64,000 nt of DNA. Source: Streptomyces sp. B3I8 (GTDB lineage Bacteria; Actinomycetota; Actinomycetes; Streptomycetales; Streptomycetaceae). This document shows, in pieces, positions 11,035 to 29,177 of the stretch; position 1 is the first letter of the stretch, and every line of letters begins with the position of its first letter. The DNA lies in contig NZ_JAUSYN010000002.1 of NCBI RefSeq assembly GCF_030816915.1, forward strand, positions 967,501 through 1,031,500, read 5' to 3'. Both the position numbers and the translations under genes were made by a program. The notes beneath the pieces were generated by a model that was given only the letters and a program-made list of their open reading frames with translations, was not told the DNA's origin and searched no databases.

Positions 11035-11640
11035 TCAGACGGTGACCGCCCGGCGGCGGTTCGCGGCCTGCGCCATCGCGTGCGCCACGACCTCCACGAG
11101 GACCTCCTTGACCGACTCCCGCTCCCTGGCGTCGCACAGCACCACGGGCACCGCGGGGTCGAGGTCGAGTGCCTGCCGCACGGTCTGGGCCGGATAGCGG
11201 GCGGCCCCGTCGAAGCAGTTGACGCCCACGACGAAGGGGATGGAGCGCCGCTCGAAGTAGTCGACCGCGGCGAAGCAGTCCTCCAGACGGCGGGTGTCGG
11301 CGAGGACGACCGCGCCCAGCGCGCCGGTGGCGAGCTCGTCCCAGAGGAACCAGAAGCGGTCCTGCCCCGGCGTACCGAACAGGTACAGCACCAGGTTCTC
11401 GCGGAGCGTGATGCGGCCGAAGTCCATGGCGACGGTGGTGGTGTTCTTGCCCTCCACGCCGCGCAGGTCGTCGACGGGGCGGCCCGCCTCGGTGAGAAAT
11501 TCCTCGGTGCGCAGCGGTCTGATCTCGCTGACCGCGCCGACCAGGGTGGTCTTGCCCGCCCCGAAGCCGCCGGCCACGAGGATCTTGAGCGTGACGGGGT
11601 CGACCGGCGGCGTACCGCGTTCAGGACGCCCGGGCTTCAT
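11035..11640 (-). CDS. cvnD: Conservon GTPase-like protein CvnD
   Basis: Small Ras/MglA-like GTP-binding protein, the last gene of a conservon. The 201-aa protein has P-loop GGFGAGKTT, a G3 motif GTPGQ in place of DTAGQ, and a G4-like NCFD instead of NKxD, all usual for this family. Start at the ATG at 11640, with GGAGAG ten bases upstream. In characterised conservons CvnD associates with the CvnA-B-C membrane complex in a way compared to eukaryotic GPCR signalling. About 100 bp of repeats separate it from cvnC, more than usual. Confidence 0.93.
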   Translation of the reverse strand: MKPGRPERGTPPVDPVTLKILVAGGFGAGKTTLVGAVSEIRPLRTEEFLTEAGRPVDDLRGVEGKNTTTVAMDFGRITLRENLVLYLFGTPGQDRFWFLWDELATGALGAVVLADTRRLEDCFAAVDYFERRSIPFVVGVNCFDGAARYPAQTVRQALDLDPAVPVVLCDARERESVKEVLVEVVAHAMAQAANRRRAVTV

Positions 11641-11670
11641 CGCTTGTCTCTCCTGCTCGTTCGATCGGTA

Positions 11671-11717
11671 ACGACGGGGCACTGGACGACGGGGCACTGG
11701 ACGACGCGGGCCCCTGG
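11671..11717. repeat. Short tandem repeat between cvnC and cvnD
   Basis: ACGACGGGGCACTGG occurs twice head to tail (11671-11700), followed by a third degenerate 17-bp unit to 11717. It lies in the only sizeable gap of the conservon operon. Confidence 0.7.
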
Positions 11718-11736
11718 ACGACGGCCTGTGCGCGCC

Positions 11737-12147
11737 TCACAGCGCCCTCAGGCCGTTGATCACGTCGCGCAGAATGCTTTCGTCAACCAGCTCTGCCGCC
11801 GGGACGGGCCGTGACACGTGGACGAGGCCCTCGTCCACGAGGTCGCCGATCAGGACCCGTACGACCCCGATCGGCAGGTCGAGCCCGGCGGCGAGTTCCG
11901 CGACCGACTGGGGGGTGTCGCGGCACAGCGCGACGATCTCCATGTGCTCCGGGGACAGCGACTCCGCCCCGGCGTCGTCGGCGTCGGGCTCCGCGAGCAC
12001 CAGTGCGATCAGATCGAGGCGGTGCTGGCCGGCGTGACTGGTGCGCCCGCGGGTCATGGCATACGGGCGGACCACCGGTCCGGCGTCGTCGTCGAACCAG
12101 TGACCGTTTTCCTGTCCCTGTGCGGGTCCCTGTCCCTCGGGGTTCAT
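11737..12147 (-). CDS. cvnC: Conservon protein CvnC (DUF742)
   Basis: 136-aa protein of the DUF742 family with the diagnostic VRPYAMTRGR segment near residue 27 and a winged-helix-like second half (SVAELAAGLDLPIGVVRVLIGDLVDEGLV). In conservons this partner interacts with CvnA and CvnB at the membrane; it is not thought to be a classical promoter-binding regulator. It starts 9 bp after cvnB, so the two are translationally close. Confidence 0.93.
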   Translation of the reverse strand: MNPEGQGPAQGQENGHWFDDDAGPVVRPYAMTRGRTSHAGQHRLDLIALVLAEPDADDAGAESLSPEHMEIVALCRDTPQSVAELAAGLDLPIGVVRVLIGDLVDEGLVHVSRPVPAAELVDESILRDVINGLRAL

Positions 12148-12156
12148 GCCCTGTCA

Positions 12157-12594
12157 CTACCCACCGGCGGGAAGATCGGTGCGTGGGGCGGTGCCCAGGT
12201 GCGTGCCGACCCGCTTGACCAGCAGCGTCATCTCGTACGCGACCTGCCCCATGTCCGCGTCGGCGTCCGCCAGGACGGCCAGACAGCTGCCGTCGCCGGC
12301 GGCCGTGACGAACAGGAACGCCTCGTCGAGTTCGACCACGGTCTGGCGGACGCTGCCGACCTCGAAGTGGCGGCCGACGCCCTTGGCGAGGCTGTGGAAC
12401 CCGGAGGCGACGGCGGCCAGGTGCTCGCTGTCCTCGCGGCTCAGGTCCGTGGACGTCCCGGTGGGCAGGCCGTCGCCGGAGAGCACGATCGCCTTGCGGA
12501 TGCTGGCGACCCTGTCGACCAGGTCGTCGAGGAGCCAGTTGAGCTCGCCCGTCGTGCCGGTCCGGTTGGCGCCTGCGTCCTTCGGTGCGGTCAT
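12157..12594 (-). CDS. cvnB: Conservon roadblock/LC7 protein CvnB
   Basis: 145-aa roadblock/LC7 (MglB-like) protein. It opens with the family core LNWLLDDLVDRVASIRKAIVLSGDG and contains the usual HLAAVASGFHSLA helix and a C-terminal MTLLVKRVGTHLG. Members act as regulators or activating partners of the small GTPase encoded downstream (CvnD). The start codon overlaps the cvnA stop by 4 nt (ATGA), indicating coupled translation. Confidence 0.93.
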   Translation of the reverse strand: MTAPKDAGANRTGTTGELNWLLDDLVDRVASIRKAIVLSGDGLPTGTSTDLSREDSEHLAAVASGFHSLAKGVGRHFEVGSVRQTVVELDEAFLFVTAAGDGSCLAVLADADADMGQVAYEMTLLVKRVGTHLGTAPRTDLPAGG

Positions 12595-15506
12595 CGACCG
12601 TCCCCCTCTGTCGTTCCTGGTGCTGAGCCGTCCGGTCCCTCGTCACCGGCGGCGTTCTCGTGGCGGCCGCGCTGCCAGCCCCGCTGGAGCGAGGCCATCC
12701 GGCTGCGGACCTCGTCCGCGTCACGATCGGCGGGATCCGCCGCGTGCGTGCCGCCGGGCCGGGTGTCGGGGCCCTGCCTCAACTGCGGGGCGAGGCTGGC
12801 CTGGCGTACGCGCCGGGGCAGCGGGCCCGCACCCGATTCTGCCTGGCCGGTCGCGGGGCCGATGCGGGGGGTGGGGTCCGGGGTCCCGGGCGTCGGGTCG
12901 GCGGCGCCGGATCCGGGCGCCCACCGGTCGGCGCGGGGGCGGCCGGTGTCGCCCCGGTCGCCCCGGTAACTCCCGTCGCTGCGGTAGGTGCCGTCGCTGC
13001 GGTCGCCGCGGACGAGTGAGGTGTTCCGCCGGTCGGTGTCCCGCCCGTCGGTGCGGCGTCGGCCGGTCCCGGACCGGTCGTCGTGCGGTCGGTTCTCGTC
13101 CGGTCGATCCTCGTGCGGCCGGTCGTCGTGCATGCGCCCGGCGTCCGTGGCGTCGCCGTGTACGCGGGCCTCGGAGGGTTCCTGGTCCCAGCCCCCGCGC
13201 CGTGCGCGGTTGTCCGGCACGGGGCGGCCGTGCGAGCTGACCAGCTTGGGGGTGTGGCGCCGGGGCAGCGGTACGGGGCCGTCGGAACGCGTGGGGTCCC
13301 CGTGTGCGGTGGGCTCGTCGCGGGCGTCACGCGTTTCGCGGGTGTGCTGCTCGTCGGGCACGCCGGTGAGGGACCTGCGGGGGCCGAACAGTCCGCGGTG
13401 CCCGTCCTCCCCGGCCAGGACGTCGGGGAAGCCGGCGAGCGCGTCCAGGTCGACGGGGGCCTCGAGTTCGACGGGTCCGTCCAGGACCGGGGTCGGCAGG
13501 CCGGGCGGGTCGCCGGGCACCCGGCCGAGCGCGGAGTCGCGGCCCGCCCCGCCCCTGGCCTTCTTGCCGGACAGCCGGTCCAGGCGGAAGCCGGTGCCGT
13601 TGGTGTCCGGAATGTCGTCGGTGAGCAAGGTGTCGGGGATGAGGACGACCGCGGTGATCCCGCCGTACGGCGACGGCTGGAGCGAGACGCGGATGTTCTG
13701 CCGCTGGGCGAGCCGGCTGACGACGAACAGGCCGAGCCGGTCGGTGTCGGAGAGCTCGAACTCCGGTGTCTCGGCGAGACGGAGGTTGGCGTCCAGGAGG
13801 GCCTCGGCGGCCATGCCCAGGCCGCGGTCGTGGATCTCCAGGGTGAAGCCGTTGGGGACGCGTTCACCGATCACCTGGACCGCGGTGTGCGGGGGCGAGA
13901 ACACGGTGGCGTTCTCGAGGAGTTCGGCCACGAGGTGGGTGAGGTCGGCCACGGCCGGGCCGGTGACGGCGACCCGGGGCAGCCGGCGGACCTCTATGCG
14001 CTCGTAGTCCTCGACCTCGGCGACGGCGGCGCGCACGACGTCCATGAGCTGGATGGGCTTGCGCCACTGCCGGGAGGGCGCGGCGCCGGAGAGGATGACG
14101 AGGCCCTCGGCGTGGCGGCGCATGCGCGTGGTGAGGTGGTCGAGGCGGAACAGGTCGGCGAGTTCGTCGGTGTCCTCGGTCCGGCGCTCCATGGTGTCGA
14201 GCAGGGTGAGCTGCTTGTGCAGCAGGACCTGGCTGCGCCGGGCGAGGTTGACGAACACCTCGGAGATCCCGGCGCGCAGTTCGGCCTGCCTGACGGCGCC
14301 CTCGACGGCCGCGCGCTGGAGGGTGTTGAGGGCCTGCCCGACCTCGCCGATCTCGTTCTTCTCGAATTCCAGGCGCGGCACCTCGGTCTCGACGTCGACC
14401 TGTTCGCCCGCCGAGAGCCGGCGCAGGACGCCGGGCAGCCGGACGCCCGACGCCTCGTGGGCCTCCTGGCGCAGCCGGCGCAGGTCGCGGACGAGACCGC
14501 TGCCGACGCGGACGGAGAGCACGACGGAGAACACCAGGGCGATCAGGCCGAGGACGCCCACGACGGCGGCCTCGGTGATGGTGCCCACAGCGGCCGGGTG
14601 GACCCGGTCCTGGTAACGGTCGGCCGCCGCGTCGTCGAGCGCGGCGAGCCGGTCGAGCACATGCCCGCCGAGGGAGTCCCAGCTCTTGGCGGTGACACCG
14701 GGGGGCATCTCGTCGGGGTCCGTGTTCTGGACGAACTTCTCGGCCTCGCGCAGCGAAGCGGTGGGGGCGCCCTGCCAGAAGTTGTCGTAGCGGTCGCGTT
14801 CCTCGGCCGGCAGCTGGTCCGTGCTGACCTCGTACACGGCCCCGCGCTGGGCGATCAGCTCGGAGATGTCCCGCAGTTCGGTACGGGTGACCCGGCCGGT
14901 GACGAGGGCCGAGCCGAGCAGCGCGTCCTCGCGGGAGAACAGTTCGCGGGCGCGGGCGGCGTTGACGAGGGCGCGGTACTGCTTGTCCAGCTCCGTGGTG
15001 TCGACGACGTCGAGGGTGGCGAGCAGGGCGTAACAGGGGTCGACCACGCGGTTGTAGAGGTCGAGGGCCCGGGCCCGGGTGAGGTTGCTGCCGTCGACGC
15101 TCTCGCGCACGGAGTCGACGCTCCGGAAGCCGTCGAGCACGGTGGTGAGGTCGGCGGAGTCGTCCCGGTCGAGCGCGTCGCGCACCTTCGAGGTCTTGAC
15201 GTTGCCGCGCAGTGTGGCCAGGGCGTCGTCCGTGGCGATCCGGGTACGGCGCAGCGCGCCCAGGGCGTCGGAGGCGCGGGGGTCGGCGAGGTAGATGAGG
15301 GTCTGCCGCCGCTCCTGCTCCAGGGCACGGACGGCGTCCTCGGTGGGGTAGGCGATCTTCTCGACGACGGAGGAGACGTGGAACAGTTGGAGGACTTCGC
15401 GGCCCATGAGGACCGAGGCGTAGCCCCAGACGGCGGTCAGGGCCAGCAGAGGCACCAGGAGCAGTGCCACGATCTTCCGGCGGATGGACTTCCCGCGAAA
15501 GCGCAT
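12591..15506 (-). CDS. cvnA: Conservon sensor histidine kinase-like protein CvnA
   Basis: 971-aa membrane sensor. Order: N-terminal membrane helix (VALLLVPLLALTAVWGYASV), an extracytoplasmic nitrate/nitrite-sensor-like helical domain (about 45-310), second membrane helix (VVGVLGLIALVFSVVLSV), a HAMP-like linker, and a HATPase domain with ELLENATVFSPP (N box), HDRGLGM (G1) and LFVVSRLA. The last roughly 300 residues are disordered and contain Asp/Arg-rich repeats. Start at the ATG at 15506, behind GGGGGAGG. No response regulator is encoded nearby, as expected for conservons. No cytochrome P450 (cvnE) accompanies this one. Confidence 0.94.
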   Translation of the reverse strand: MRFRGKSIRRKIVALLLVPLLALTAVWGYASVLMGREVLQLFHVSSVVEKIAYPTEDAVRALEQERRQTLIYLADPRASDALGALRRTRIATDDALATLRGNVKTSKVRDALDRDDSADLTTVLDGFRSVDSVRESVDGSNLTRARALDLYNRVVDPCYALLATLDVVDTTELDKQYRALVNAARARELFSREDALLGSALVTGRVTRTELRDISELIAQRGAVYEVSTDQLPAEERDRYDNFWQGAPTASLREAEKFVQNTDPDEMPPGVTAKSWDSLGGHVLDRLAALDDAAADRYQDRVHPAAVGTITEAAVVGVLGLIALVFSVVLSVRVGSGLVRDLRRLRQEAHEASGVRLPGVLRRLSAGEQVDVETEVPRLEFEKNEIGEVGQALNTLQRAAVEGAVRQAELRAGISEVFVNLARRSQVLLHKQLTLLDTMERRTEDTDELADLFRLDHLTTRMRRHAEGLVILSGAAPSRQWRKPIQLMDVVRAAVAEVEDYERIEVRRLPRVAVTGPAVADLTHLVAELLENATVFSPPHTAVQVIGERVPNGFTLEIHDRGLGMAAEALLDANLRLAETPEFELSDTDRLGLFVVSRLAQRQNIRVSLQPSPYGGITAVVLIPDTLLTDDIPDTNGTGFRLDRLSGKKARGGAGRDSALGRVPGDPPGLPTPVLDGPVELEAPVDLDALAGFPDVLAGEDGHRGLFGPRRSLTGVPDEQHTRETRDARDEPTAHGDPTRSDGPVPLPRRHTPKLVSSHGRPVPDNRARRGGWDQEPSEARVHGDATDAGRMHDDRPHEDRPDENRPHDDRSGTGRRRTDGRDTDRRNTSLVRGDRSDGTYRSDGSYRGDRGDTGRPRADRWAPGSGAADPTPGTPDPTPRIGPATGQAESGAGPLPRRVRQASLAPQLRQGPDTRPGGTHAADPADRDADEVRSRMASLQRGWQRGRHENAAGDEGPDGSAPGTTEGDGR

Positions 15507-15757
15507 GGCCTCCCCCAGCCGGCCCCTCGCCGATCGGGGGCACACATGTGCGTCAACAAACGGCGTGAGCCTACTACTGCCGAGGGAAGAACTCGAAGCT
15601 TCACAGGTGTGCCCGGGGCTTGAAAGGGGAAAGCGACGGAGGGAGTTGTCCGCCCATAGAGGTCATGCCCGGACATGCGTGTCCGGGCTTTCGGTGGCCG
15701 GCGCTCCGCATGTCCGGAGGCAGAGATCGGCGAGTTGGCCGAAATTTTGGCTTCCGA

Positions 15758-15784
15758 GGGAATCTTCACGGAATCTGGATCGTC
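15758..15784 (+). promoter_or_regulatory. Possible ECF (sigma-R-like) promoter
   Basis: GGGAAT (15758-15763), exactly 18 bases, then GTC (15782-15784). This has the geometry of a sigma-R promoter (GGGAAT-N18-GTT) with the last base changed. It points at the membrane protein starting at 15934. The remainder of the 427-bp gap between cvnA and that gene holds no clear ORF. Confidence 0.4.
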
Positions 15785-15933
15785 TTCTTCTACAGGGAAA
15801 TCGGGGCGGAACCGGCCAGGGCTGTCGTATGCCGCACTCAGGCGGCTTATATCTGTGCAAGCCGGGCAGCAGCTGGGAAACGGTGTCGGCCGACACCGTG
15901 GGGCGGCCGGGCGGCAGCGGGGAGGACGAGTTG

Positions 15934-16485
15934 ATGGGGACGGCGGAGCGGAGCGAGGCTCCCGCGAGCGGGGCCGTCGGTCCTCCGGGGCTCGACGAGG
16001 GCGACCTCGCGTTCGAGGGCGAGCGGGAGTTCGCGTTCGACGACGAGGAGGGTGAGCGGGGGGCCTGCGCGGAGGGTGAGCGGGAAGTGTACGCGCGGCG
16101 CGCGCCGTTGTGGGTCGAGGAGCCGGCGAAGCGCCGCAGGCTGCCGGATCCGGTGAGGACGGCGGCCGTGCGGGCGGTACTGCTCATCGCGGTGACGCTG
16201 GTCCAGGCGGTCACGGCGTTCCTGTGCACGCTGGCCGGGTCCTGGCTGGCCTTCCCGATGGTGTTGAGCAGCGTGGTCAGCACGGTCGTGGCGACCTGGG
16301 GCGTGCTCGACGTGTGGGTGACCCGGCAGGTGTGGAAGCAGCGTCACGGCGTGGTGTCCACGCCGAGCGCGGCAGCCCGGGCGCTGCGCCGCGAGCGGCG
16401 CCGGGTGCGGCGCCAGGAGCGGTCCGCGGAGCGGGCGCAGGAGCGCATACGCCGGCGGGGCGCGGGCCGGTTGTCGCACCCCTGA
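15934..16485 (+). CDS. Conserved membrane protein, two TM segments
   Basis: 183-aa protein of unknown function. An acidic N-terminal half (about 1-70) is followed by two adjacent membrane helices (VRAVLLIAVTLVQAVTAFLC, then a stretch around MVLSSVVSTVVATWGVLDV) and a strongly basic C-terminal tail with repeated Arg residues (RRERRRVRRQERSAERAQER), probably cytoplasmic. The ATG at 15934 has GGGGAGG 12 bases upstream. It is convergent with the SMC-like operon and divergent from the conservon, with no functional link visible. Confidence 0.75.
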   Translation: MGTAERSEAPASGAVGPPGLDEGDLAFEGEREFAFDDEEGERGACAEGEREVYARRAPLWVEEPAKRRRLPDPVRTAAVRAVLLIAVTLVQAVTAFLCTLAGSWLAFPMVLSSVVSTVVATWGVLDVWVTRQVWKQRHGVVSTPSAAARALRRERRRVRRQERSAERAQERIRRRGAGRLSHP

Positions 16486-16657
16486 CGACGGCGACGTCGC
16501 GGCGGCACCACGGCGGCGCCAAAGGACCGACGCGCTCCCGCCCCTTTTCGCGGGGCGACGGGCGTTCCCCCGCCTGCGCCTGTCACGGAGCGACTGCGTT
16601 CTGCCGTCCCGCGCCCTTCGCAGGGCGCGACGGGCGGGACGCGGAGGGGCAGGAGGC

Positions 16658-16714
16658 CAGGGCCTGCTCTCGATTCCTTCCGGGCGGACGACGGGAATTG
16701 AGAGACAGGCCCTG
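16658..16714 (-). terminator. Long hairpin terminator of the SMC-like operon
   Basis: Left arm CAGGGCCTGCTCTCGATTCC (16658-16677) pairs with the right arm at 16694-16714 (GGAAT, GAGAG, CAGGCCCTG), about 20 bp with one bulge. It starts 2 bp past the minus-strand stop at 16717 and closes the operon, leaving no room for a fourth gene. Confidence 0.75.
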
Positions 16715-16716
16715 TC

Positions 16717-19700
16717 TCAGGCGCGCGGGGTCTCCTGCGCGGGGCGTCTGAACATCCGGGTGGCCGTGATCTCGCTGTGGACCGCCTCGTCCGCCCGGGT
16801 CGGCCGGGGCAGTCCCGGGCGGAGGTGCTCCTCGACGCTGATGTACTTCAGCCCCGCCCTGAGGTCGGCGTCGTTGCGCAGCCGGATCACCAGGGGGAAC
16901 TCGGCGAGCGCGGTCGTGTCGAACAGGCCGGTGGTGTACAGCAGTTGCACGCCGAGCGCATCGGAGACGGCCCGCTGGAGCTCCAGCAGATACGTGGCGT
17001 TGGCGCGGCCGATGGGGTTGTCGAGGAACAGGGTGCCGGCGTGCCGGTGCTTGTCGCGGCCCCGGTCGTTGGAGCGCAGCGCGGCCATCGTGCAGTAGAG
17101 GGCGATGGCGGCGGTGAGGAGCTGGCCGCCGGAGAACACGTCCCCCATCTGTCCGACGGGCACGCGCTCGGCGCGCAGCACCGCGTCCGGCTTGAGGATC
17201 TCCACGGCGATGCCCTTGGGGCGCAGGGCGGCGGCGACCCCGCGCAGCAGCAGGGACATGCCGTCCCGGCGCAGGTCCGCGTTCTTCTTGACGGCGGCGC
17301 GGGTCGCCTCGTCGATAACCTCGCCCAGCCGTTCGGTAAGGGTGGCCTGGTCGGGTTCCTCGAAGCGGATGCGGAGGAACTCCTGTCCGGACCACTCGCC
17401 GAGCCCTTCGGGCAGCCGGGACAGACGTTGGGCGGAGCGCAGGGTGGCGAGCGCGGACTCCACCAGCCCGCGCAGCCGGTCCACGATGGAGTCACGGTTG
17501 CGTTCGAGCTGCGCGAGTTCGTCGGTGAGGACGCGCAGCCGGGGAGCGAACGCCTCCTTCCAGCGCCGGGCGTGCTCCGGCAGCGCGGAGGCGGGCAGTT
17601 CGCGGATCTGCTGCCGGGCCGGGGTGCGGACCTGTTCGTACCGGGTGGAGTTGGCGTGCCGGACGAGGATGTCGCTCGCCTCGCGGACGGCGCTCTCGGC
17701 GGCGGACAGGTCGGCGGCACAGCCGCGCAGTGAGCGGCGGGCCTCGGCGGCGGAGTGCCGGGCCTCCTCCAGAGTGCCCGGGTAGGGCTCGGGTTCGGTC
17801 TGCTCCTCGTCGGCGGTGTGCTCGCGCAGCAGGTCGCGGAGCATCGCGGCGATCTCGTCGAAGCCGCCGGCCGCGTCCTCGGCGGCCCGGTGGGCGTCGA
17901 GGAGCTCGGCGTGGGTGTCCCGCGCCCCGGTCAGTTCCTCGGTGCGGACGGCGAGTTCGGTGGTGGCGGTGCGCAGCAGTGCCTGGGCGTGCTCTGCGTC
18001 GCGGGGGACGAGGTCGCCGGGCAGGTCGGTGTGCGCCTCCCCGTCGTCGGGAGCGAGCCGTTCGGCCTCGCCGCGCAGCCGGCCGAGTTGCTCGCTGGCG
18101 GTGGACATCCGGGTCTCGAGGAGTTGCACGAGTTCCTCGGCGCGGGCGGCGGCGGCCTGACGGGAAGGCCCGTCGGCGCCGTCCGGGGCGGCCAGGAGCT
18201 GCTCGGCGCGGGTGCGCACCTTGTTGGTGAGCCGGTCCAGTTCCCGGCGGGCGGCGGATTCCTCGCTCTCGGCCCGTGCCTGCTCGGCCCGCAGATCGGC
18301 GCCGACACCGACCTTCTCGTACAGCTGGGAGGCGGCCCGGTAGGCCTCGCGCAGCGCGGGGAGCGACGACGTCGGCGCGGCACGGTCGTCCTCCGGCACA
18401 TCGTCGGGGGCGCCGGCGATCTCGGCCCGCTCGGCGCGCAGGGTGCGGGCCGTGCGGCGGGCGTCGTCGGCGGCGCGCTGGGCGGCGCGCCGGTCCTCGT
18501 CTGCGGCGCGGGCGCGGTCCAGGCAGGACTGGGCGCGGGCCTCGCACTCGACGGCGACGTCGGCGAGTTCGCGGAGGCCGGCCTGCCAGCCGGCGCGTTC
18601 ACGCAGCCGGAAGGCGAGTCCGGCGAGCGCGTCGGCGGCGCGCCGGGCCCGCTGCGCGCCCTCCTGACGTTCGTCACGTACGGCGGTGGCCTCCGCGGCG
18701 GCCTCGTCGGCCTCGGCGCGGGCGGTGCGGGCCTCGGCGAGTTCGGCCTCGGCCTCCTCGGCGAACGCGCGGGCCTCGGCGGCGGCCGCGGCGAGTTCGG
18801 TGAGGCGTCCGGCCGGGCAGCCGGTGCGCCAGGACGCGAGCCGGGCCGCCAGTTCGCGGTCCTTGCCGAGGCGGGCGGCGAGCGCCCGGATCTCCTCGTC
18901 GCGTCCGGTCGCGCGGGCGCGCAGCGCCTGGCGTTCCTCGTCGGCGGCGTGCTCGTCGTGCATGGCGGGGTTCGGCGGGACGAGGAACACCTCGCCCTCC
19001 CCCGTCGCGTCCGGTGCCGGGGTCGGGGCGAGCAGGGCGGCGGCGGTGCCGACGGCGACGGCGGAACGGGGCAGCAGCGCGGCCTCGCCGAGCGCCTCGC
19101 GGGCACGGGCGTGCGAGGCGGGGTCGGTGATGATGACGCCGTCGACGAGTTCGGGCCGGGCGGCGAGCACGCGCGCGTGGTCGGCGGGGTCGACCGCCTG
19201 GGCCAGGTAGCGCCAGCCGGGCAGAGCCGGGATGCCGTGTTCGCCGAGGAACTCCACGGTGGCCAGCACGTCGGGGCCGGGCGGCAGCAGTCCGCCGTCG
19301 CCGAGGGCGCCGAGGATGCGGGCGTCGTCGGCGGCGGCGGTCCGCAGGTCGAAGAGTTGGCGTTCGGCGGAGGAGACGGCGTCGTCGAGGAGTTCCCGCA
19401 GTTCGTCGGCGAAGTGGTCGAGCTGCTCGGGGGTGAGGGGTCGGTCGGGGACGGCGCCGGAGACGGAACCCGGCACGGACGCGGCGTCGGCGTGGGCGTC
19501 TTCGGAGGTGTGTCCGGTGCCGGTGGCCGCGGCCTCGCGGCGGGCCGGGCGGTCGGCGCCTTCGGCGCCGGTGCGGTCGCCGGACGGGTCCTCGGTCCCC
19601 GTCCTGGGGCCGGGCACGCCCACCCGTGCCGCTCCGGACGGGCCGGTCGCCGCCCCCGTCCGGCCGGTCGCCGCTCCCGTCGAGGCTCCCGGCAGACCGA

Positions 19701-21531
19701 GCAGTTCCGCGAGACGTTCCTCCGTCGCCAGGGACTCGGCGAGCCGGCGTTCTGCCTCGTGGGCGCGCGTGGCGGCTGTCGCCGCGTCGGCCGAGCGGGC
19801 GGCGGTCAGTTCCGCGCGGGACTCGGCCGAGGCCGCCTCCCGCGCCAGTTCCGTGGCCCTGTGGGCCGCCTCGCGGGCGGTGTCCCAGGCCGCGACCGCG
19901 TTCTTCTCGGCGTCGCTGGCCGTGAGCGCGGCGCGGGCCGGGTCGGCGTCGGGGGCGCTGTCGTCGAGCCAGCCCGCGCGCACGGCCTCGGCCGTCTCCT
20001 GCTCGACCTCGGTCAGCCGCTGGCGCAGGTGCCCGGCCTCGCTGCGGGCGCGCTGCGCCTCGGTGGCCGCCGCGGTGGCGTCCCGGTGGGCCGCCTCGCC
20101 CGTCTCCTGGAGGGCGGCCGAGCGCTCCTCCTCCTCGTTGGCGAGGGCCTCGGCGTCGTCGGCCGCCGACCGCAGCGCCCGTACGAGGTCGACGGCCGCC
20201 TTGGCGCGGGCGGCGAGCGCGGGTGCCGCGTCCCGTTCGGCCTCGCGGATGGCGACGGCCACGCGCGCGGAGCGGTCACCGGCGGCCCGGTGGCGCAGCA
20301 CGACCTCGGCGGCCTGCCATGCGGAGTGCAGGGTGCGCGCGTCGGCCAGCTCGCGCTTCTGCGCGGCCGCCGCCTTCTCGGCGCCCGCCAGGGCCAGCGA
20401 GGCGTGCCGGTAGGCGAGTTCGGCGGCGACCAGGGCGGCCCGCTCGCGGGCGCCCTCGGCGTGGGTGACGGCGTGGGCGGCGGCGGTGACGCGCTGGGCG
20501 AGGTCGGCGGCGCGCGCCCGCTCCCGCACGCCCCGCGCGGACAGCCGCCGGGCGAGCGTGCGGGTGCGCCGTTCGGCGCCCGCGTGGATGTCGCGGGCGC
20601 GGGCGCGCGTCTCGGCGGCCTCGACGATGCGGCCGAGCAGGTCCACCGAGCCAGCGGTGAAGTCGCGTTCGGCGATCAGTTCGGCGCGCCGGCCCAGCTT
20701 GTTGCCGAAGCCGCTGACCAGGTCCGCGAGTCCGTCGGTGTCCCGGGTGTCGGTGACGGCGCGCAGCAGCAGGTCGGTGAAGTCGGCGTCCTTCTTGACC
20801 GCGAACAGGCCGGCGGCCTCGCCCTCGTCGGCGTTCATCTCCCGCTGGTAGCGGAAGAGTTCGGGGTCGAGGCCGAGGTCGGTGAGGTGTTCGTTCCAGC
20901 GGTCGTGGATCTCCTCCCAGTGGACCTCCAGGTGCGGGTACGCCTTGCCCGCGTCCGTGAGCGCGTCCCGGAAGCCCTTCATCGTGCGCCGCCGCCCGTG
21001 GGCGCCCGAGACGCCCTCGACGGGGGGCCGCACGGCGGTGGACTCGGCGACCGGCAGATTGTCCAGGGTGAGTCCGGGGCCGGGCCGGAAGGAGTACCAG
21101 GCCTCGGCGAACTTGCGCGGGTCGCCCGAGACCTGGCGGCCGCGCCACTCGCTGGCCTTGCCGACCACGACGCACTCGCCGGTCAGCGTGTGCTGCCACT
21201 CCAGGGCCACGTGCCCGCAGTCGTCGGCCAGCAGGAACTTGCGCAGCACGCCGGAGCTGGCGCCGCCCAGGGTGTTGCGGTGGCCCGGCAGCATCACGGA
21301 GAAGATCAGCTTGAGCAGTACGGACTTGCCGCCGCCGTTCTCCAGGAAGAGCACGCCGGCCGGCGCGGGCCGGCGCGGCGGGCCGACCGGTTCCTCCTCG
21401 AAGAATTCCGCCTGCGTGGGCGCGGGGTCGGGCACGGGCTCGCCGACGCCCCGCAGGTCCAGCACGGTGTCGGCGTAGCGCGCGCCGGCCGGCCCGATGG
21501 AGTAGAGGCGGACCCGGGACAGTTCGTACAT
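16717..21531 (-). CDS. SMC/MukB-like ATPase (JetC/MksB type)
   Basis: 1604-aa ABC-type ATPase with SMC architecture: N-terminal P-loop FLENGGGKSVLLK (Lys69), two very long Ala/Glu/Arg-rich coiled-coil arms interrupted by a central hinge-like segment and a Gly/Ser/Thr-rich linker (about 610-700), and a C-terminal signature FSGGQLLTAAIALY (1466 on) with Walker B GTLFLDNPIGRAN. The Walker B has Asn1505 where the catalytic Glu is expected. It is the third gene after kleisin- and MukE-like genes, the order of MukFEB and of Wadjet jetABC. Role inferred: DNA loop extrusion, in chromosome organisation or plasmid exclusion. It is annotated only as a chromosome-segregation-type ATPase by resemblance. 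Confidence 0.85.
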   Translation of the reverse strand: MYELSRVRLYSIGPAGARYADTVLDLRGVGEPVPDPAPTQAEFFEEEPVGPPRRPAPAGVLFLENGGGKSVLLKLIFSVMLPGHRNTLGGASSGVLRKFLLADDCGHVALEWQHTLTGECVVVGKASEWRGRQVSGDPRKFAEAWYSFRPGPGLTLDNLPVAESTAVRPPVEGVSGAHGRRRTMKGFRDALTDAGKAYPHLEVHWEEIHDRWNEHLTDLGLDPELFRYQREMNADEGEAAGLFAVKKDADFTDLLLRAVTDTRDTDGLADLVSGFGNKLGRRAELIAERDFTAGSVDLLGRIVEAAETRARARDIHAGAERRTRTLARRLSARGVRERARAADLAQRVTAAAHAVTHAEGARERAALVAAELAYRHASLALAGAEKAAAAQKRELADARTLHSAWQAAEVVLRHRAAGDRSARVAVAIREAERDAAPALAARAKAAVDLVRALRSAADDAEALANEEEERSAALQETGEAAHRDATAAATEAQRARSEAGHLRQRLTEVEQETAEAVRAGWLDDSAPDADPARAALTASDAEKNAVAAWDTAREAAHRATELAREAASAESRAELTAARSADAATAATRAHEAERRLAESLATEERLAELLGLPGASTGAATGRTGAATGPSGAARVGVPGPRTGTEDPSGDRTGAEGADRPARREAAATGTGHTSEDAHADAASVPGSVSGAVPDRPLTPEQLDHFADELRELLDDAVSSAERQLFDLRTAAADDARILGALGDGGLLPPGPDVLATVEFLGEHGIPALPGWRYLAQAVDPADHARVLAARPELVDGVIITDPASHARAREALGEAALLPRSAVAVGTAAALLAPTPAPDATGEGEVFLVPPNPAMHDEHAADEERQALRARATGRDEEIRALAARLGKDRELAARLASWRTGCPAGRLTELAAAAAEARAFAEEAEAELAEARTARAEADEAAAEATAVRDERQEGAQRARRAADALAGLAFRLRERAGWQAGLRELADVAVECEARAQSCLDRARAADEDRRAAQRAADDARRTARTLRAERAEIAGAPDDVPEDDRAAPTSSLPALREAYRAASQLYEKVGVGADLRAEQARAESEESAARRELDRLTNKVRTRAEQLLAAPDGADGPSRQAAAARAEELVQLLETRMSTASEQLGRLRGEAERLAPDDGEAHTDLPGDLVPRDAEHAQALLRTATTELAVRTEELTGARDTHAELLDAHRAAEDAAGGFDEIAAMLRDLLREHTADEEQTEPEPYPGTLEEARHSAAEARRSLRGCAADLSAAESAVREASDILVRHANSTRYEQVRTPARQQIRELPASALPEHARRWKEAFAPRLRVLTDELAQLERNRDSIVDRLRGLVESALATLRSAQRLSRLPEGLGEWSGQEFLRIRFEEPDQATLTERLGEVIDEATRAAVKKNADLRRDGMSLLLRGVAAALRPKGIAVEILKPDAVLRAERVPVGQMGDVFSGGQLLTAAIALYCTMAALRSNDRGRDKHRHAGTLFLDNPIGRANATYLLELQRAVSDALGVQLLYTTGLFDTTALAEFPLVIRLRNDADLRAGLKYISVEEHLRPGLPRPTRADEAVHSEITATRMFRRPAQETPRA

Positions 21532-21645
21532 CGTCTGGCTCTCGTCAGTCTTCGGTCTTCGGCGGATCGGGATGCCGCGGTGCTCGGCGTGCTGCGGTGC
21601 CAGGCCGGGCGGCGGTTCTGGACGGTGCGGGGTGCCGCGGTGCGG

Positions 21646-22536
21646 TCATGGCTGCGGGGAGTGGAACGGCAGTCCGGCGTCGGCCACCAGTTCCAGGTCG
21701 TCGGCGTCGTCGGCGGGCAGCAGGGTCGGCGTGCCGTCGGTCACCGGGACGACGCCGAGCTCCAGCAGTTCGGCCATGGCGGCACTGCCGGCCATGTCGC
21801 GGACCTGGAGCTGGTAGCGGGCGGTGGTGCGGTAGGTGCCGCCGCCGTCGTCGCCGGTGCGCTGCAGGAAGCCGGAGTCGGTGAGGAAGGCGACGGCCTT
21901 GCCGATGATGCCGGTGGTGGAGCCGGCCAGTCTGCGCGCGTCCTTGGTGGCGCCGGTGGCGCTGCGCCGCACCCAGATACGCCAGGCGGCCTCGAGTCCG
22001 GGTGCGTCGGTCGCCGGGTCGGTGTTCTCGCCCCGCGTGGCCGCCTGTTCCTCCAGACGGCGGCAGGCCTGGCGGACGAAGGCGTCGACGCCGTTGACCG
22101 TGACCCGGCCGATGTAGCCGTCGTCGGCGAGGTCCTCGGGGCGGGGGAAGGCGAGGGCGGCGACGGCGAGATGGGCGAGGCCGTGCAGGAAGCGGTCGCC
22201 CGCGTCGGCGGACGCGCGGCGGGCGTAGTCGCCCATGCGGACGGCGAAGACGGAGTCCTCGGCGGCGGTCACGGCCATGCCCGCGCGCGGGGAGACCTCC
22301 AGCACCACGAGGCCGAGCCCGGCGGCCACGGCGTCGGCGAGCCGGGCGAAGTGCGGGTCCTCCCGGTGGCGGCGGAGCAGTTCGGCGTACTCCTGGTCGC
22401 GGGCGGGCTGCAGTCTGGGCTGCAGTCCGAAGGCGACGAGTCGCGCGGCGTCGGCGGCGTCGGCGGGCGTGACGCCACCGTTCGCCGGTGGCGCGGCGAC
22501 GGCCTCCGGCTCACTCCACTCGACGGACTCACTCAC
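21646..22536 (-). CDS. MukE/JetB-like winged-helix subunit
   Basis: 296-aa soluble protein between a kleisin-like and an SMC-like gene. Position, size and predicted winged-helix segments (for example TGIIGKAVAFLTDSGFLQR followed by a beta hairpin TYRTTARYQLQVRDMA) fit the KITE-type MukE/MksE/JetB subunit that binds the kleisin. Similarity is structural and contextual; I cannot cite a named family from sequence alone. Good ribosome site AAGGAG before the ATG at 22536. 114 bp separate it from the ATPase gene. Confidence 0.7.
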   Translation of the reverse strand: MSESVEWSEPEAVAAPPANGGVTPADAADAARLVAFGLQPRLQPARDQEYAELLRRHREDPHFARLADAVAAGLGLVVLEVSPRAGMAVTAAEDSVFAVRMGDYARRASADAGDRFLHGLAHLAVAALAFPRPEDLADDGYIGRVTVNGVDAFVRQACRRLEEQAATRGENTDPATDAPGLEAAWRIWVRRSATGATKDARRLAGSTTGIIGKAVAFLTDSGFLQRTGDDGGGTYRTTARYQLQVRDMAGSAAMAELLELGVVPVTDGTPTLLPADDADDLELVADAGLPFHSPQP

Positions 22537-22678
22537 GGTCGGGGCTCCTTGGTGCGGGGGGTGGGGGTTGCGGGCACACGGGTCGACCGGCGGCGTACGC
22601 CGGGGACCGTGCCACGGCGACGGACCGTGGCGGCCGGGCGGGCGGTTCGCCGGGCGGGGGTGCTGTCGTGTCGGGGGG

Positions 22679-24205
22679 TCACGCGGTCTCCGCGCGGGCC
22701 GTCGCCATCGCCGCCGCGTCCAGCAGGGCCGTGCCGACGATGAGGTCGGCGCCGCCGAACTCCCGGTCGTCGAGCTGCGTGCCGTCGTCCACCGCGAACA
22801 GCAGTCTCTCCTCGCCCTGACGGTAGGCGGTGCCGACCGGCGGGCTGGCCGCGTGCACCGCCAGCAGGGCGACGAGGTAGGGGAGGTCGGGGTCGCGGCG
22901 CCGGGCCTCCGCGAGCAGGCCGGAGAGCCGGCGGGGCGCGTCGGCGGGCAGGTCGAGCAGTTCCGTCGCGGCGGCGAGCTGCTCCTCGCTGAAGCGGCTG
23001 TCGTCCGGGGTGGCGATGAGGTCCGGCTCGGGCATCTCGACGCCGAGATGTTCGCGCTCCACGGGCGGCGTCAGCAGCAGCTCGACGAGATCCCCGACGC
23101 GTACCGAGGCGGGGGTGCGCAGTCCCGTGCCACGGGCGAAGAACGCGTCGGTGACGCGGACGGACCGCTCCAGCGGCAGCGGCAGGAGCGGGGCGAGCAG
23201 GTGTCCGTACAGGTCCGTGCCGGACGCCGCCGTGACCGGGGCGAACGCCTGGCGATCCTGTTCGGCGCGGAACAGCGGGCCGGCCTCCAGCAGCCGGGAC
23301 TGGAGCTGGGTGTGGCGGCGGATGCAGTCCTTGACGATGTCGACGAGCTCGGCGGCGCGCCGCTTGTTCTCGGGGTCCTCGGACTCGTCGCGTGCCCGGC
23401 GGATGTTGGTGAGGATCGCGTTCTCGTGGCGGTAGCGGTCGGCGACGTGGTCGAGGGCCTCGGCGATCAGGTCGGGGACCGCGTTCAGCCAGTCCACCGC
23501 CCGTACGTTGCGCCGCGTCGCCTCCAGGGCGCGGCGCAGCGTCTCAGCGTACTGCACGGTGCGGTAGCGGGCCTGTTCGGCGGCGAGCTGGGCGTCGGCG
23601 AGCCGGCCCCGGCTGACGAGCACCTCCAGTTTGACCTCGGCGGCGATCTGCGCGCTGGTGACGTCCGTGTCGAGGGCGCCCACCAGGACGTTGACCGCCT
23701 CGTCGGTCGTGCGCAGATAGACGCCTCCGCCGTAGCCGGGGACCTCCTCGACGAGCTTGAAGTCGTAGTCCCGGCGCACGTACGTGCCGTCCGGGGCGAA
23801 CGTGCCGTAGACCGCGCGGAAGCCGCGGTCCACGCTGCCGACGTTGATCAGGTTCTCCAGGACCCAGCGGGCCACCCGCTCGTGCTCGGCGGCCGGGCGC
23901 CGTGGGGCCTGGGCGGCGATGCGAGGGAGGAGGCGGGAGACGATCTGTTCCTGGTCGGCGCCCGTGTCGAAGTCCATGTGGAGGGTGACCAGGTCGATGG
24001 CGGCGAGGGCGACCTCCGCCATGCCGTACACGGAGTACTCACCGGCGAGATTGGCCTTGCGGGCGTCCAGGTCGTGCAGGGGCGCGGTGCACGCGAGCGC
24101 GCGCAGGCGGCGGGCCAGGCCCTCGTCGGCGGCCGGCCCCGGGGCGGGGCGTGGGCCCGCGCTGAGCTGGGGCGGAACGCGGTCCGTCGGTACGGGGGAA
24201 GTCAC
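22679..24205 (-). CDS. MukF/JetA-like kleisin subunit
   Basis: 508-aa protein, first gene of the SMC-like operon. The N-terminal half reads as winged-helix (LARRLRALACTAPLHDLDARKANLAGEY onward), the middle as long helices (AQLAAEQARYRTVQYAETLR; DVVADRYRHENAILTNIRRAR-like coil), and the C-terminus as another compact domain, the pattern of MukF/MksF/JetA kleisins that bridge SMC heads. The start was taken as GTG at 24205 because a TAGTCT box sits 7 bases upstream, suggesting a leaderless mRNA; an in-frame TTG at 24235 is the alternative. Function by context and architecture. Confidence 0.7.
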   Translation of the reverse strand: MTSPVPTDRVPPQLSAGPRPAPGPAADEGLARRLRALACTAPLHDLDARKANLAGEYSVYGMAEVALAAIDLVTLHMDFDTGADQEQIVSRLLPRIAAQAPRRPAAEHERVARWVLENLINVGSVDRGFRAVYGTFAPDGTYVRRDYDFKLVEEVPGYGGGVYLRTTDEAVNVLVGALDTDVTSAQIAAEVKLEVLVSRGRLADAQLAAEQARYRTVQYAETLRRALEATRRNVRAVDWLNAVPDLIAEALDHVADRYRHENAILTNIRRARDESEDPENKRRAAELVDIVKDCIRRHTQLQSRLLEAGPLFRAEQDRQAFAPVTAASGTDLYGHLLAPLLPLPLERSVRVTDAFFARGTGLRTPASVRVGDLVELLLTPPVEREHLGVEMPEPDLIATPDDSRFSEEQLAAATELLDLPADAPRRLSGLLAEARRRDPDLPYLVALLAVHAASPPVGTAYRQGEERLLFAVDDGTQLDDREFGGADLIVGTALLDAAAMATARAETA

Positions 24206-24246
24206 GGTGCACAGACTAGGTCCTCGGTCTGACAACGGGCCAAACG
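24206..24246 (-). promoter_or_regulatory. Possible leaderless promoter of the SMC-like operon
   Basis: On the minus strand TAGTCT (a TANNNT -10 box) ends 7 bases before the GTG at 24205, and no Shine-Dalgarno lies at normal distance. A TTGGCC at 19 bp spacing is a weak -35 candidate. Confidence 0.4.
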
Positions 24247-27654: not shown

Positions 27655-28407
27655 ATGATCGACCTGAACGCCGATCTGGGCGAGGGCTTCGGCCGCTGGC
27701 GGCTCACCGACGACGCGGCACTGCTGTCGGTCGTCACGAGCGCCAACGTGGCCTGCGGCTTCCACGCCGGGGACCCGGCCACCATGCGGCGCGTGTGCGC
27801 GCTGGCGGCCGAGCGGGGCGTCCGCATCGGCGCCCAGGTCTCCTACCGCGACCTGGCCGGCTTCGGGCGGCGCGCGATGGACGTGCCGGCCGACGAGCTG
27901 GCCGCCGAGGTCGCCTACCAGATCGGCGCCCTGGAGGTGTTCGCCCGGGCGGCGGGGGCGCGCGTGGCGTACGTGAAGCCGCACGGCGCGCTCTACAACC
28001 GGGTGGTGCGCGACGAGGAGCAGGCGGCGGCCGTGGTCGAGGGAGTGCGCCTCGCCGACGCCGCGCTGCCGGTGCTCGGGCTGCCCGGCTCCCGGTTCCT
28101 GGAAGCCGCCGCGAAGGCCGGCCTGCCCACCGTCACCGAGGCGTTCGGGGACCGCGCGTACACCGACGAGGGCACGCTGGTGCCGCGCGGCCGGGACGGC
28201 GCGGTGGTCACCGAGCCGGACACGGTGGTCGAGCGGTCCCTGGGGCTGGCCCGTGAGGGCGAGGTGACCGCGCTGTCGGGCCGTCGGATCCCGGTGCGGG
28301 CCCGGTCGTTGTGCCTGCACGGCGACACCCCGGGCGCGGTGGAGCTGGCCCGCCGGGTGCGGGCACGGCTGGAGGAGGCGGGCGTGCGGGTGGAGGCGTT
28401 CGCATGA
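27655..28407 (+). CDS. pxpA: 5-oxoprolinase subunit A (LamB/YcsF family)
   Basis: 250-aa LamB/YcsF protein, the A component of the bacterial ATP-dependent 5-oxoprolinase PxpABC that opens 5-oxoproline to glutamate. Signatures: MIDLNADLGEGFGRW at the N-terminus, SANVACGFHAGDP, GAQVSYRDLAGFGRR, VKPHGALYN and LCLHGDTPGA. Ribosome site CAGGAGAG. It overlaps pxpB by ATGA. Confidence 0.95.
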   Translation: MIDLNADLGEGFGRWRLTDDAALLSVVTSANVACGFHAGDPATMRRVCALAAERGVRIGAQVSYRDLAGFGRRAMDVPADELAAEVAYQIGALEVFARAAGARVAYVKPHGALYNRVVRDEEQAAAVVEGVRLADAALPVLGLPGSRFLEAAAKAGLPTVTEAFGDRAYTDEGTLVPRGRDGAVVTEPDTVVERSLGLAREGEVTALSGRRIPVRARSLCLHGDTPGAVELARRVRARLEEAGVRVEAFA

Positions 28408-29177
28408 CGATCCCGGTGCGGGCGCTGCCCGTCGGTGACCGGGCCCTGCTGGTGGAACTGGACTCCGGTGACGCGGCCCAGGCCCTCCACGCGGAGCTGC
28501 TCCGCCGCCGGGCCGCGGGCGCGCTGACGGTACGGGAGATCGTGCCCGCCGCGCGCACGGTTTTGCTCGACGGTCTGGACGAGCCGGACCGGCTCGCCGC
28601 CGAACTCCCCGGCTGGGAGGTGCCGCCGCTCGCCGCGCGGACACAGGAGGCCATCGAGATCCCCGTCCGGTACGACGGGCCCGACCTGCCGGACGTCGCC
28701 GCGCTGTGGGGTGTTCCGCCGGCCGAGGTGGCGCGGATCCACTCCGCCGCCGGCTTCCGGGTCGCCTTCTGCGGTTTCGCCCCCGGGTTCGGCTATCTGA
28801 CGGGGCTGCCGGAACGGTACGACGTGCCGCGCCGGGCCACCCCGCGCACCGCGGTCCCGGCGGGGTCGGTCGCCCTGGCCGGGCCGTACACGGGCGTCTA
28901 CCCGCGCGCGTCGCCGGGCGGCTGGCAGCTCATCGGGACGACGGACGCGGTCCTGTGGGACCACGCGCGGGTACCGGCGGCGCTGCTCACGCCGGGGGCC
29001 CGGGTGCGCTTCGTACCTGTGGGCCGGCGGGAGGACGAACCGGTCAGTCACCGGGAGACCGAGCCGGTGAGCCACCGCGAGGACGAACAGGCGGGCCACC
29101 GGGAGGACCACCCGATGAGCCACCAGGATCACGAACCGGTGAGCCGCCGGCGGAGCGACCCGGCGGGGTCGTCATGA
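28404..29177 (+). CDS. pxpB: 5-oxoprolinase subunit B (KipI/AHS1 family) with repetitive tail
   Basis: 257-aa protein with the AHS1/KipI domain: LPVGDRALLVELDS at the start, FCGFAPGFGYLTGLP, PAGSVALAGPYTGVYP and GGWQLIG. It works with PxpA and PxpC. Unusually, after the domain ends (about residue 208) there is a hydrophilic tail made of five 8-residue units (DEPVSHRE-like), encoded by five 24-bp tandem repeats at 29034-29153. Start ATG overlaps the pxpA stop; the stop overlaps pxpC. Confidence 0.93.
   Translation: MTIPVRALPVGDRALLVELDSGDAAQALHAELLRRRAAGALTVREIVPAARTVLLDGLDEPDRLAAELPGWEVPPLAARTQEAIEIPVRYDGPDLPDVAALWGVPPAEVARIHSAAGFRVAFCGFAPGFGYLTGLPERYDVPRRATPRTAVPAGSVALAGPYTGVYPRASPGGWQLIGTTDAVLWDHARVPAALLTPGARVRFVPVGRREDEPVSHRETEPVSHREDEQAGHREDHPMSHQDHEPVSRRRSDPAGSS
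29034..29153 (+). repeat. Five 24-bp tandem repeats in pxpB
   Basis: Units at 29034, 29058, 29082, 29106 and 29130, each 24 bp (8 codons), encode DEPVSHRE, TEPVSHRE, DEQAGHRE, DHPMSHQD and HEPVSRRR. In-frame length keeps the downstream overlap with pxpC intact whatever the copy number. Confidence 0.85.

Follow-up and report, generated by a model that had tools for sequence, protein, structure and literature searches.

What does a Wadjet motor do when its nuclease is missing? In Wadjet, a dimeric JetABC motor extrudes a plasmid and the nuclease JetD is activated once extrusion is complete (passages of PMC12647877). The question is raised by a 64,000-nucleotide stretch of the genome of Streptomyces sp. 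B3I8 (contig NZ_JAUSYN010000002.1, positions 967,501 to 1,031,500 of the forward strand; hereafter the window), which carries three genes, here called jetA, jetB and jetC, for a putative kleisin, a putative KITE subunit and an ATPase resembling the structural maintenance of chromosomes (SMC) proteins, and no JetD. These genes prove to be an inherited core locus of the Streptomycetaceae, and we consider it probable that this nuclease-less type III JetABC motor serves the host chromosome as a second condensin. The canonical condensin, Smc-ScpAB, has an SMC-kleisin-KITE architecture; it belongs to a different family, and in the window's genome scpA lies 355 kb from the operon. The presence of a canonical condensin had been assumed in a preliminary description of the window and is borne out by ScpA, the one subunit that was searched for, which was found elsewhere in the genome.

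Lineage of the three genes

All three open reading frames (ORFs) are open, lie on the minus strand and show the strong coding bias at third codon positions (GC content, GC3) expected of real genes, and their order, A-B-C, is identical in relatives at other loci (Table 1). JetA and JetC score highly against the type III models of PADLOC, and none of the three proteins has a Pfam or NCBIfam match above cut-off. JetB also has no direct PADLOC match above cut-off, and its identity rests on its position, on its being 54% identical to JetB in a complete jetABCD operon on a Rhodococcus plasmid, and on the weak JetB3 matches in PADLOC of some of its relatives (in alignment A5, 7 of 16 to PDLC00571 and 5 of 16 to PDLC00573; in alignment A2, 4 of 37 to PDLC00573). 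The three genes are real and intact and, judged by sequence, are assigned to the type III Wadjet lineage as jetA, jetC and, probably, jetB. This agrees with the preliminary description, which had proposed a JetABC-type SMC operon without nuclease, in this order and on this strand, and had asked for a check against Jet profiles. Its 508-aa JetA also stands: the GTG start at 24205 fits better than a TTG at 24235 and is preferred because of the N-termini and lengths of the orthologs, since 13 of the 20 JetA proteins from fetched Streptomyces loci (starts picked by script) begin with MTSP and 12 of the 20 are 508 aa long, and lengths among the best 120 database relatives listed are mostly 503-514 aa.

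The same description had likened the operon to MukBEF or Wadjet, and only the second likeness holds at the sequence level. Membership of MukBEF or type I MksBEF was rejected, there being no Pfam match to the MukB, MukE or MukF families and nothing significant in hhalign comparisons with Escherichia coli MukE and MukF; the best MukE alignment spans about 30 columns with an expect value (E) of about 0.5, which is no evidence. Sequence-profile searches of the PDB for the putative kleisin and KITE folds gave no relevant matches, and these folds are neither confirmed nor excluded by sequence profiles. The set is best classed, on present sequence comparisons, as a JetABC-type SMC operon without nuclease that is neither a member of MukBEF/MksBEF nor a strict Wadjet, the latter label being denied because JetD was tested for and is absent.

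Absence of JetD

JetD was found at none of 40 Streptomycetaceae core loci by tblastn with five JetD protein queries (E up to 1e-4); these were the window, 20 loci from Streptomyces and 19 from other genera, with 16-20 kb fetched per locus or the 64-kb window itself, and one of them (L053) holds only a piece of JetA. As a positive control, the identical search found JetD at 17 (L002-L006, L069, L085, L088, L095 and L097-L104) of 18 accessory Wadjet loci. Five of the 17 were sources of the queries, leaving 12 of 13 otherwise, and the eighteenth locus, L096, is cut at a contig end. When 11 JetD queries were used, no JetD was found at any of the 63 named loci whose sequence runs on for 1.2 kb or more past the end of JetC (59 Streptomycetaceae and 4 Frankiaceae, drawn from the best 80 of at least 555 relatives, with 17 dropped; this set overlaps the 40 loci in some species). 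JetD was likewise not found by tblastn anywhere in the window. The operon lacks JetD, as first described, and the operons of close relatives lack it too, where an encoded JetD had been set beforehand as counting against that description. JetD does adjoin more distant relatives, with JetA identity of at most 61%.

Genome-wide, the type III JetD profile matched in 10 of 101 Streptomyces genomes (11 matches in all) and Pfam JetD_C in 14, six of them among those 10, so that 18 genomes have some JetD by one search or the other. In the remaining eight JetD_C genomes the match is on a different contig from core JetA or more than 1.7 Mb away. The 10 genomes with type III JetD (G000, G007, G022, G032, G057, G058, G086, G090, G091 and G094), which include that of the window, are the same 10 that have a second, divergent type III JetA, and no type III JetD match is more than 7 kb from such a JetA. 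The second JetA match in G005 is a 46-residue piece beside the core gene and was not counted. The accessory JetA proteins are 31-52% identical to core JetA, apart from that of G022, where a partial match gives 26%. The search of the rest of the window's genome proposed in the preliminary description did yield a JetD, a single type III match; it lies in a separate and complete accessory type III jetABCD operon (about C2:5892033-5899921; L002, 9531-17443) with JetA, JetB, JetC and JetD of 518, 271, 1486 and 353 aa, the JetA being 37-38% identical to core JetA.

Several other accessory operons were seen. A JetD 98% identical to that of L002 occurs in G146 (L103). G090 has one divergent type III Wadjet twice, at C1:8876-16700 and C1:9222521-9230258, near both ends of a 9.2-Mb contig and in mirror image, as expected for terminal inverted repeats; in the right-hand copy the JetD match is shorter and has a stop inside. 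Divergent complete type III jetABCD operons are also present on large linear plasmids of Streptomyces (L004, L005 and L006), in whose records all four jet genes are annotated as hypothetical proteins.

Distribution and genomic position

That the operon is core to a whole family is the result that changes its meaning most, and it was absent from the preliminary description. Core JetA is present in 98 of 101 Streptomyces genomes, with 81-92% identity outside the window's own genome (in G081 as a piece at a contig end), and JetB also has a match in 98; canonical ScpA was found in 96. The three genomes without JetA and JetB are the same, G050 (82% complete), G079 (78% complete) and G073 (98% complete, in 1140 contigs). 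Across the Streptomycetaceae a core JetA ortholog (at least 74% identity) is found in 119 of 121 genomes, which represent 16 of 17 genera. The exceptions are G109, the sole genome of its genus sampled, which has only a distant complete Wadjet, and G169, which has none.

ScpA and JetA share a contig in 58 genomes; the two are on the same strand in 54 of these and 300-600 kb apart in 47 (median 458 kb), the distance exceeding 5 Mb in four. Because of its near-universal presence and its mostly fixed distance and strand relative to scpA, the operon is an inherited core chromosomal locus of the Streptomycetaceae with a mostly fixed position. Outside the family, no close ortholog was found in 15 genomes from other families of the order, the two matches there having 33 and 45% identity. 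A class-wide search for JetA (three candidates scored per genome) gave a match in 64 of 394 genomes, comprising 40 Streptomyces, 19 Frankiaceae, one genome of a third family and four matches at E near 1e-3; at least one Frankiaceae genome (G231) had no match.

One Streptomyces genome, G012, has the operon in two places, with a jetA match that ends early at C1:5735565 (L053) and jetB at C1:9003459, 3.3 Mb away and near the contig end, the result of rearrangement or misassembly. Natural loss of the operon was considered for this genome and ruled out, since jetB is elsewhere in it.

Phylogeny

A tree of JetA and JetB from 72 loci, obtained by a quick search with SH-aLRT (Shimodaira-Hasegawa-like approximate likelihood ratio test) support only and with long-branch warnings, places all 39 Streptomycetaceae core loci in a single clade and 15 Frankiaceae loci in a separate one, each with support of 100. 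At nine of these 15, each with at least 1.2 kb beyond JetC, there is no JetD; five are cut before JetD could be seen and the last, L080, ends 91 bp after JetC. A third clade contains six loci with JetD together with L089, which is without it, and the fork joining the three clades has no resolved order. Once loci of unknown JetD state are set aside, the tree can be explained by two changes in the JetD label, L089 being one of them. A single loss of JetD common to the Streptomycetaceae and Frankiaceae is likely. L089, from the third family (G555), has no JetD within 8 kb beyond JetC and groups with nuclease-bearing copies, and may represent a second, independent loss. Its JetA has a stop near the start of the aligned span, which may be upstream of the true start, and the gene was not taken to be broken.

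Two Frankiaceae genomes additionally hold nuclease-bearing copies (L085 and L088). One of them, G511, has in L085 a JetABCD whose JetA is 61% identical to core JetA, and on another contig the nuclease-less L086.

Integrity of the motor and selection

Each of the 46 JetC proteins of at least 1400 aa that were labelled nuclease-less, among them that of the window and those of L080 and L089, retains the Walker A, signature and Walker B motifs. The D-N form of Walker B is common to nuclease-less and nuclease-bearing JetC. In three loci outside the 46, the tblastn pieces of jetC fall in more than one frame (L052 and L071 of the Streptomycetaceae and L081 of the Frankiaceae). The ratio of nonsynonymous to synonymous substitution rates (dN/dS; Nei-Gojobori, pairwise) is at most 0.18 for jetA, jetB and jetC in six of seven Streptomycetaceae core pairs, and the core operon is under purifying selection. 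In two accessory pairs the ratio is 0.17-0.37 and in one Frankiaceae pair 0.19-0.36; some loci occur in more than one pair, and the distances within pairs were not equalized. Among the columns conserved in 12 nuclease-bearing relatives, those lost in 37 Streptomycetaceae number none in JetA, one in JetB and nine in JetC, so the loss of JetD has left little mark on the rest of the complex.

Gaps of no more than 30 bp between jetB and jetC occur at none of 35 Streptomycetaceae core loci, compared with 15 of 16 loci that have the nuclease and 11 of 12 from Frankiaceae; between jetA and jetB they occur at 12 of 35, 13 of 16 and 8 of 12, respectively. In the window the gaps are 114 bp (jetB-jetC) and 142 bp (jetA-jetB). 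The Streptomycetaceae core operon has thus opened up, its genes being spaced apart. Nuclease-less JetC is also longer (median 1563 versus 1498 aa for nuclease-bearing JetC), and much of the extra length in the Streptomycetaceae is a variable, low-complexity linker at approximately residues 581-720 of the window's JetC. This linker has 140 residues here and 58-181 (median 85) across the Streptomycetaceae, versus medians of 57 in nuclease-bearing and 60 in Frankiaceae JetC.

Possible function of the operon

By analogy with Wadjet motors, the JetC-JetB-JetA motor would load on DNA, hydrolyze ATP and extrude loops, and without JetD it could not cut the DNA; its anatomy predicts condensin-like working. 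We infer that the three proteins form a complex whose loop extrusion is put to use on the chromosome, because extrusion without cutting, together with the universality of the operon, points to work on the chromosome, where JetABC would operate beside Smc-ScpAB in roles such as compaction, disentangling or the organization of chromosome arms in multigenomic hyphae and spores. The best reading of its origin is a second condensin derived independently, in parallel to the origin proposed for MksBEF and MukBEF. On the broader proposition, our confidence is evenly balanced: that the Streptomycetaceae, and the Frankiaceae by the same or a related event, use two condensins, Smc-ScpAB and a type III Wadjet minus its nuclease, reached by a route independent of MksBEF/MukBEF, and hence that SMC complexes have been converted from defense to housekeeping more than once.

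Comparison with known systems helps to place the operon. It shares with type III Wadjet (JetABCD) the profile matches of JetA and JetC, the order A-B-C and intact JetC ATPase motifs including the D-N Walker B, and it differs in the absence of JetD, in its mostly fixed place as opposed to an accessory one and in the spacing of its genes. The hinges of Wadjet-III are described as lacking a channel (passages of PMC12647877). MksBEF of Pseudomonas aeruginosa and MukBEF have the kleisin-KITE-SMC gene order proposed for the operon and no nuclease; the window proteins are unlike them in having neither a Pfam match nor significant similarity, by profile, to E. coli MukE and MukF, and as the operon is of type III it would have lost JetD independently. 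MksBEFG of Corynebacterium glutamicum, a type I Wadjet, is another Jet-type SMC operon of an actinobacterium that also has canonical ScpA. Unlike the core operon, it keeps the MksG nuclease and acts against plasmids (sections of PMC10123090).

Several observations weigh against a chromosomal role. The operon is not needed in a sister lineage, since none of the 15 genomes from other families of the order has a close ortholog; it is split in G012; and a few assemblies have a frameshifted jetC, although some of these may be assembly errors. In the seventh core pair, L060/L061, dN/dS is 0.14-0.34, with JetC reaching 0.34, as high as in accessory copies. Moreover, since the conserved columns of JetA and JetB are kept, another partner could bind at the former place of JetD.

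The last point leads to the alternative that the operon still serves defense, JetABC sensing or trapping circular foreign DNA and either silencing it without cutting or recruiting a nuclease other than JetD that is encoded elsewhere. We regard this as rather unlikely. The relatives of the operon are Wadjet operons with JetD, and the columns of JetA and JetB conserved in those relatives have been retained, both of which would fit a defensive motor. A typical defense gene, however, is not near-universal, mostly fixed in position and mostly slow to evolve, and where a nuclease-bearing type III Wadjet is present, in 10 genomes, it forms a separate operon with its own JetA. A partner gene conserved beside the operon across families is also missing. 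No ORF within 4 kb is common to 37 Streptomycetaceae loci and those of Frankiaceae and others (comparing ORFs of 90 aa or longer, taken from up to 10 representative loci; 9 Frankiaceae and other loci downstream, 13 upstream), so no replacement effector is visible in the neighborhood, other nucleases not having been searched for genome-wide.

It is far less probable that core JetABC borrows JetD in trans from an accessory Wadjet. The complete type III jetABCD operon in the window's own genome would make this feasible there, but no JetD was found by either the type III profile or Pfam JetD_C in 80 of the 98 Streptomyces genomes that carry core JetA, and each type III JetD is beside a JetA of its own that is only distantly related to the core protein. 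The suggestion in the preliminary description that plasmids might be restricted with a nuclease encoded elsewhere is therefore, in the sense of JetD, unlikely as a general answer. The least probable alternative is a decaying relic of a defense operon, for although L052, L071 and L081 have their jetC in pieces, stops lie inside the JetA match of G168 and the operon of G012 is split, some of which may be assembly errors, catalytic motifs are intact in all 46 full-length nuclease-less JetC proteins, dN/dS is low in all but one of the core pairs and JetA and JetB are both kept throughout nearly all Streptomyces species.

If JetABC is indeed a second condensin, a heavily studied genus would have an overlooked, near-universal second SMC complex. 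It would offer an independent instance, open to experiment, of SMC immunity converted to housekeeping, and sister systems that retain the nuclease, present in some of these genomes, could serve as natural controls. Among the best 120 orthologs listed for each of JetA and JetB, most of the named ones are entered as "hypothetical protein". Wadjet is enriched in Actinobacteria and in Streptomyces is located more often towards the chromosome ends, and the core JetABC operon is not mentioned in the passages on Wadjet of the paper that reports this (PMC10482375). A term search of a 2026 paper on SMC in Streptomyces germination (PMC13121528) did not find the word Wadjet, and no description of a JetD-less Wadjet or a second condensin in Streptomyces was found in the literature covered, which leaves out preprints and most subscription papers. 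Annotation of defense systems may also be affected, as a tool that counts single matches to JetA or JetC would score the non-cutting core operon as a Wadjet.

Neighboring genes

Table 1. The jet operon and its surroundings, in window coordinates.
Feature	Position	Strand	Remarks
jetA-like, type III JetA, putative kleisin	22679-24205	-	508 aa, GTG start; PADLOC JetA3 PDLC00567, 616 bits
jetB-like, putative KITE subunit	21646-22536	-	296 aa; by position and 54% identity to Rhodococcus JetB
jetC-like, type III JetC, SMC-like ATPase	16717-21531	-	1604 aa; PADLOC JetC3 PDLC00588, 1408 bits
Strong hairpin, likely terminator (no T-tract)	16653-16718	-	RNA fold; directly after jetC stop, between convergent genes
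Convergent ORF downstream of jetC	15484-16485, or ~15919-16485 with later start	+	no Pfam match
Conservon (NIT/HATPase kinase, roadblock Robl_LC7, DUF742, GTP-binding protein)	11035-15545		downstream of jetC; Pfam
GntR/FCD regulator and MFS transporter			upstream of operon
LamB/YcsF and carboxyltransferase genes	27655-29177		upstream of operon; matched at 15/20 fetched Streptomyces loci

The hairpin that follows jetC has a long imperfect stem (-38.7 kcal/mol, z -4.1), and none of 200 shuffled sequences folded as well. The preliminary description had called it terminator-like; the hairpin itself is upheld, it has no T-tract, and a simple terminator scan of the window does not list it, and we consider it likely to be a terminator. 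The next gene is convergent, as had been stated, and is matched by tblastn at 18 of the 20 fetched Streptomyces loci. Upstream, the GntR/FCD regulator is matched at 14 of these loci and the major facilitator superfamily (MFS) transporter at 10. Neither of these two, nor any of the conservon genes, was found by tblastn at the 18 loci L077-L094.

The S. coelicolor operon is presumably located near SCO1398-SCO1400, judging from the neighborhood and from the gene numbering of that species, and no literature was found under the tags SCO1398-SCO1401. In that species CvnA4 is SCO1402 (according to passages of PMC9739842). The four conservon genes of the window are matched at 17, 17, 15 and 8 of the 20 fetched Streptomyces loci, the kinase gene being one of those found at 17.

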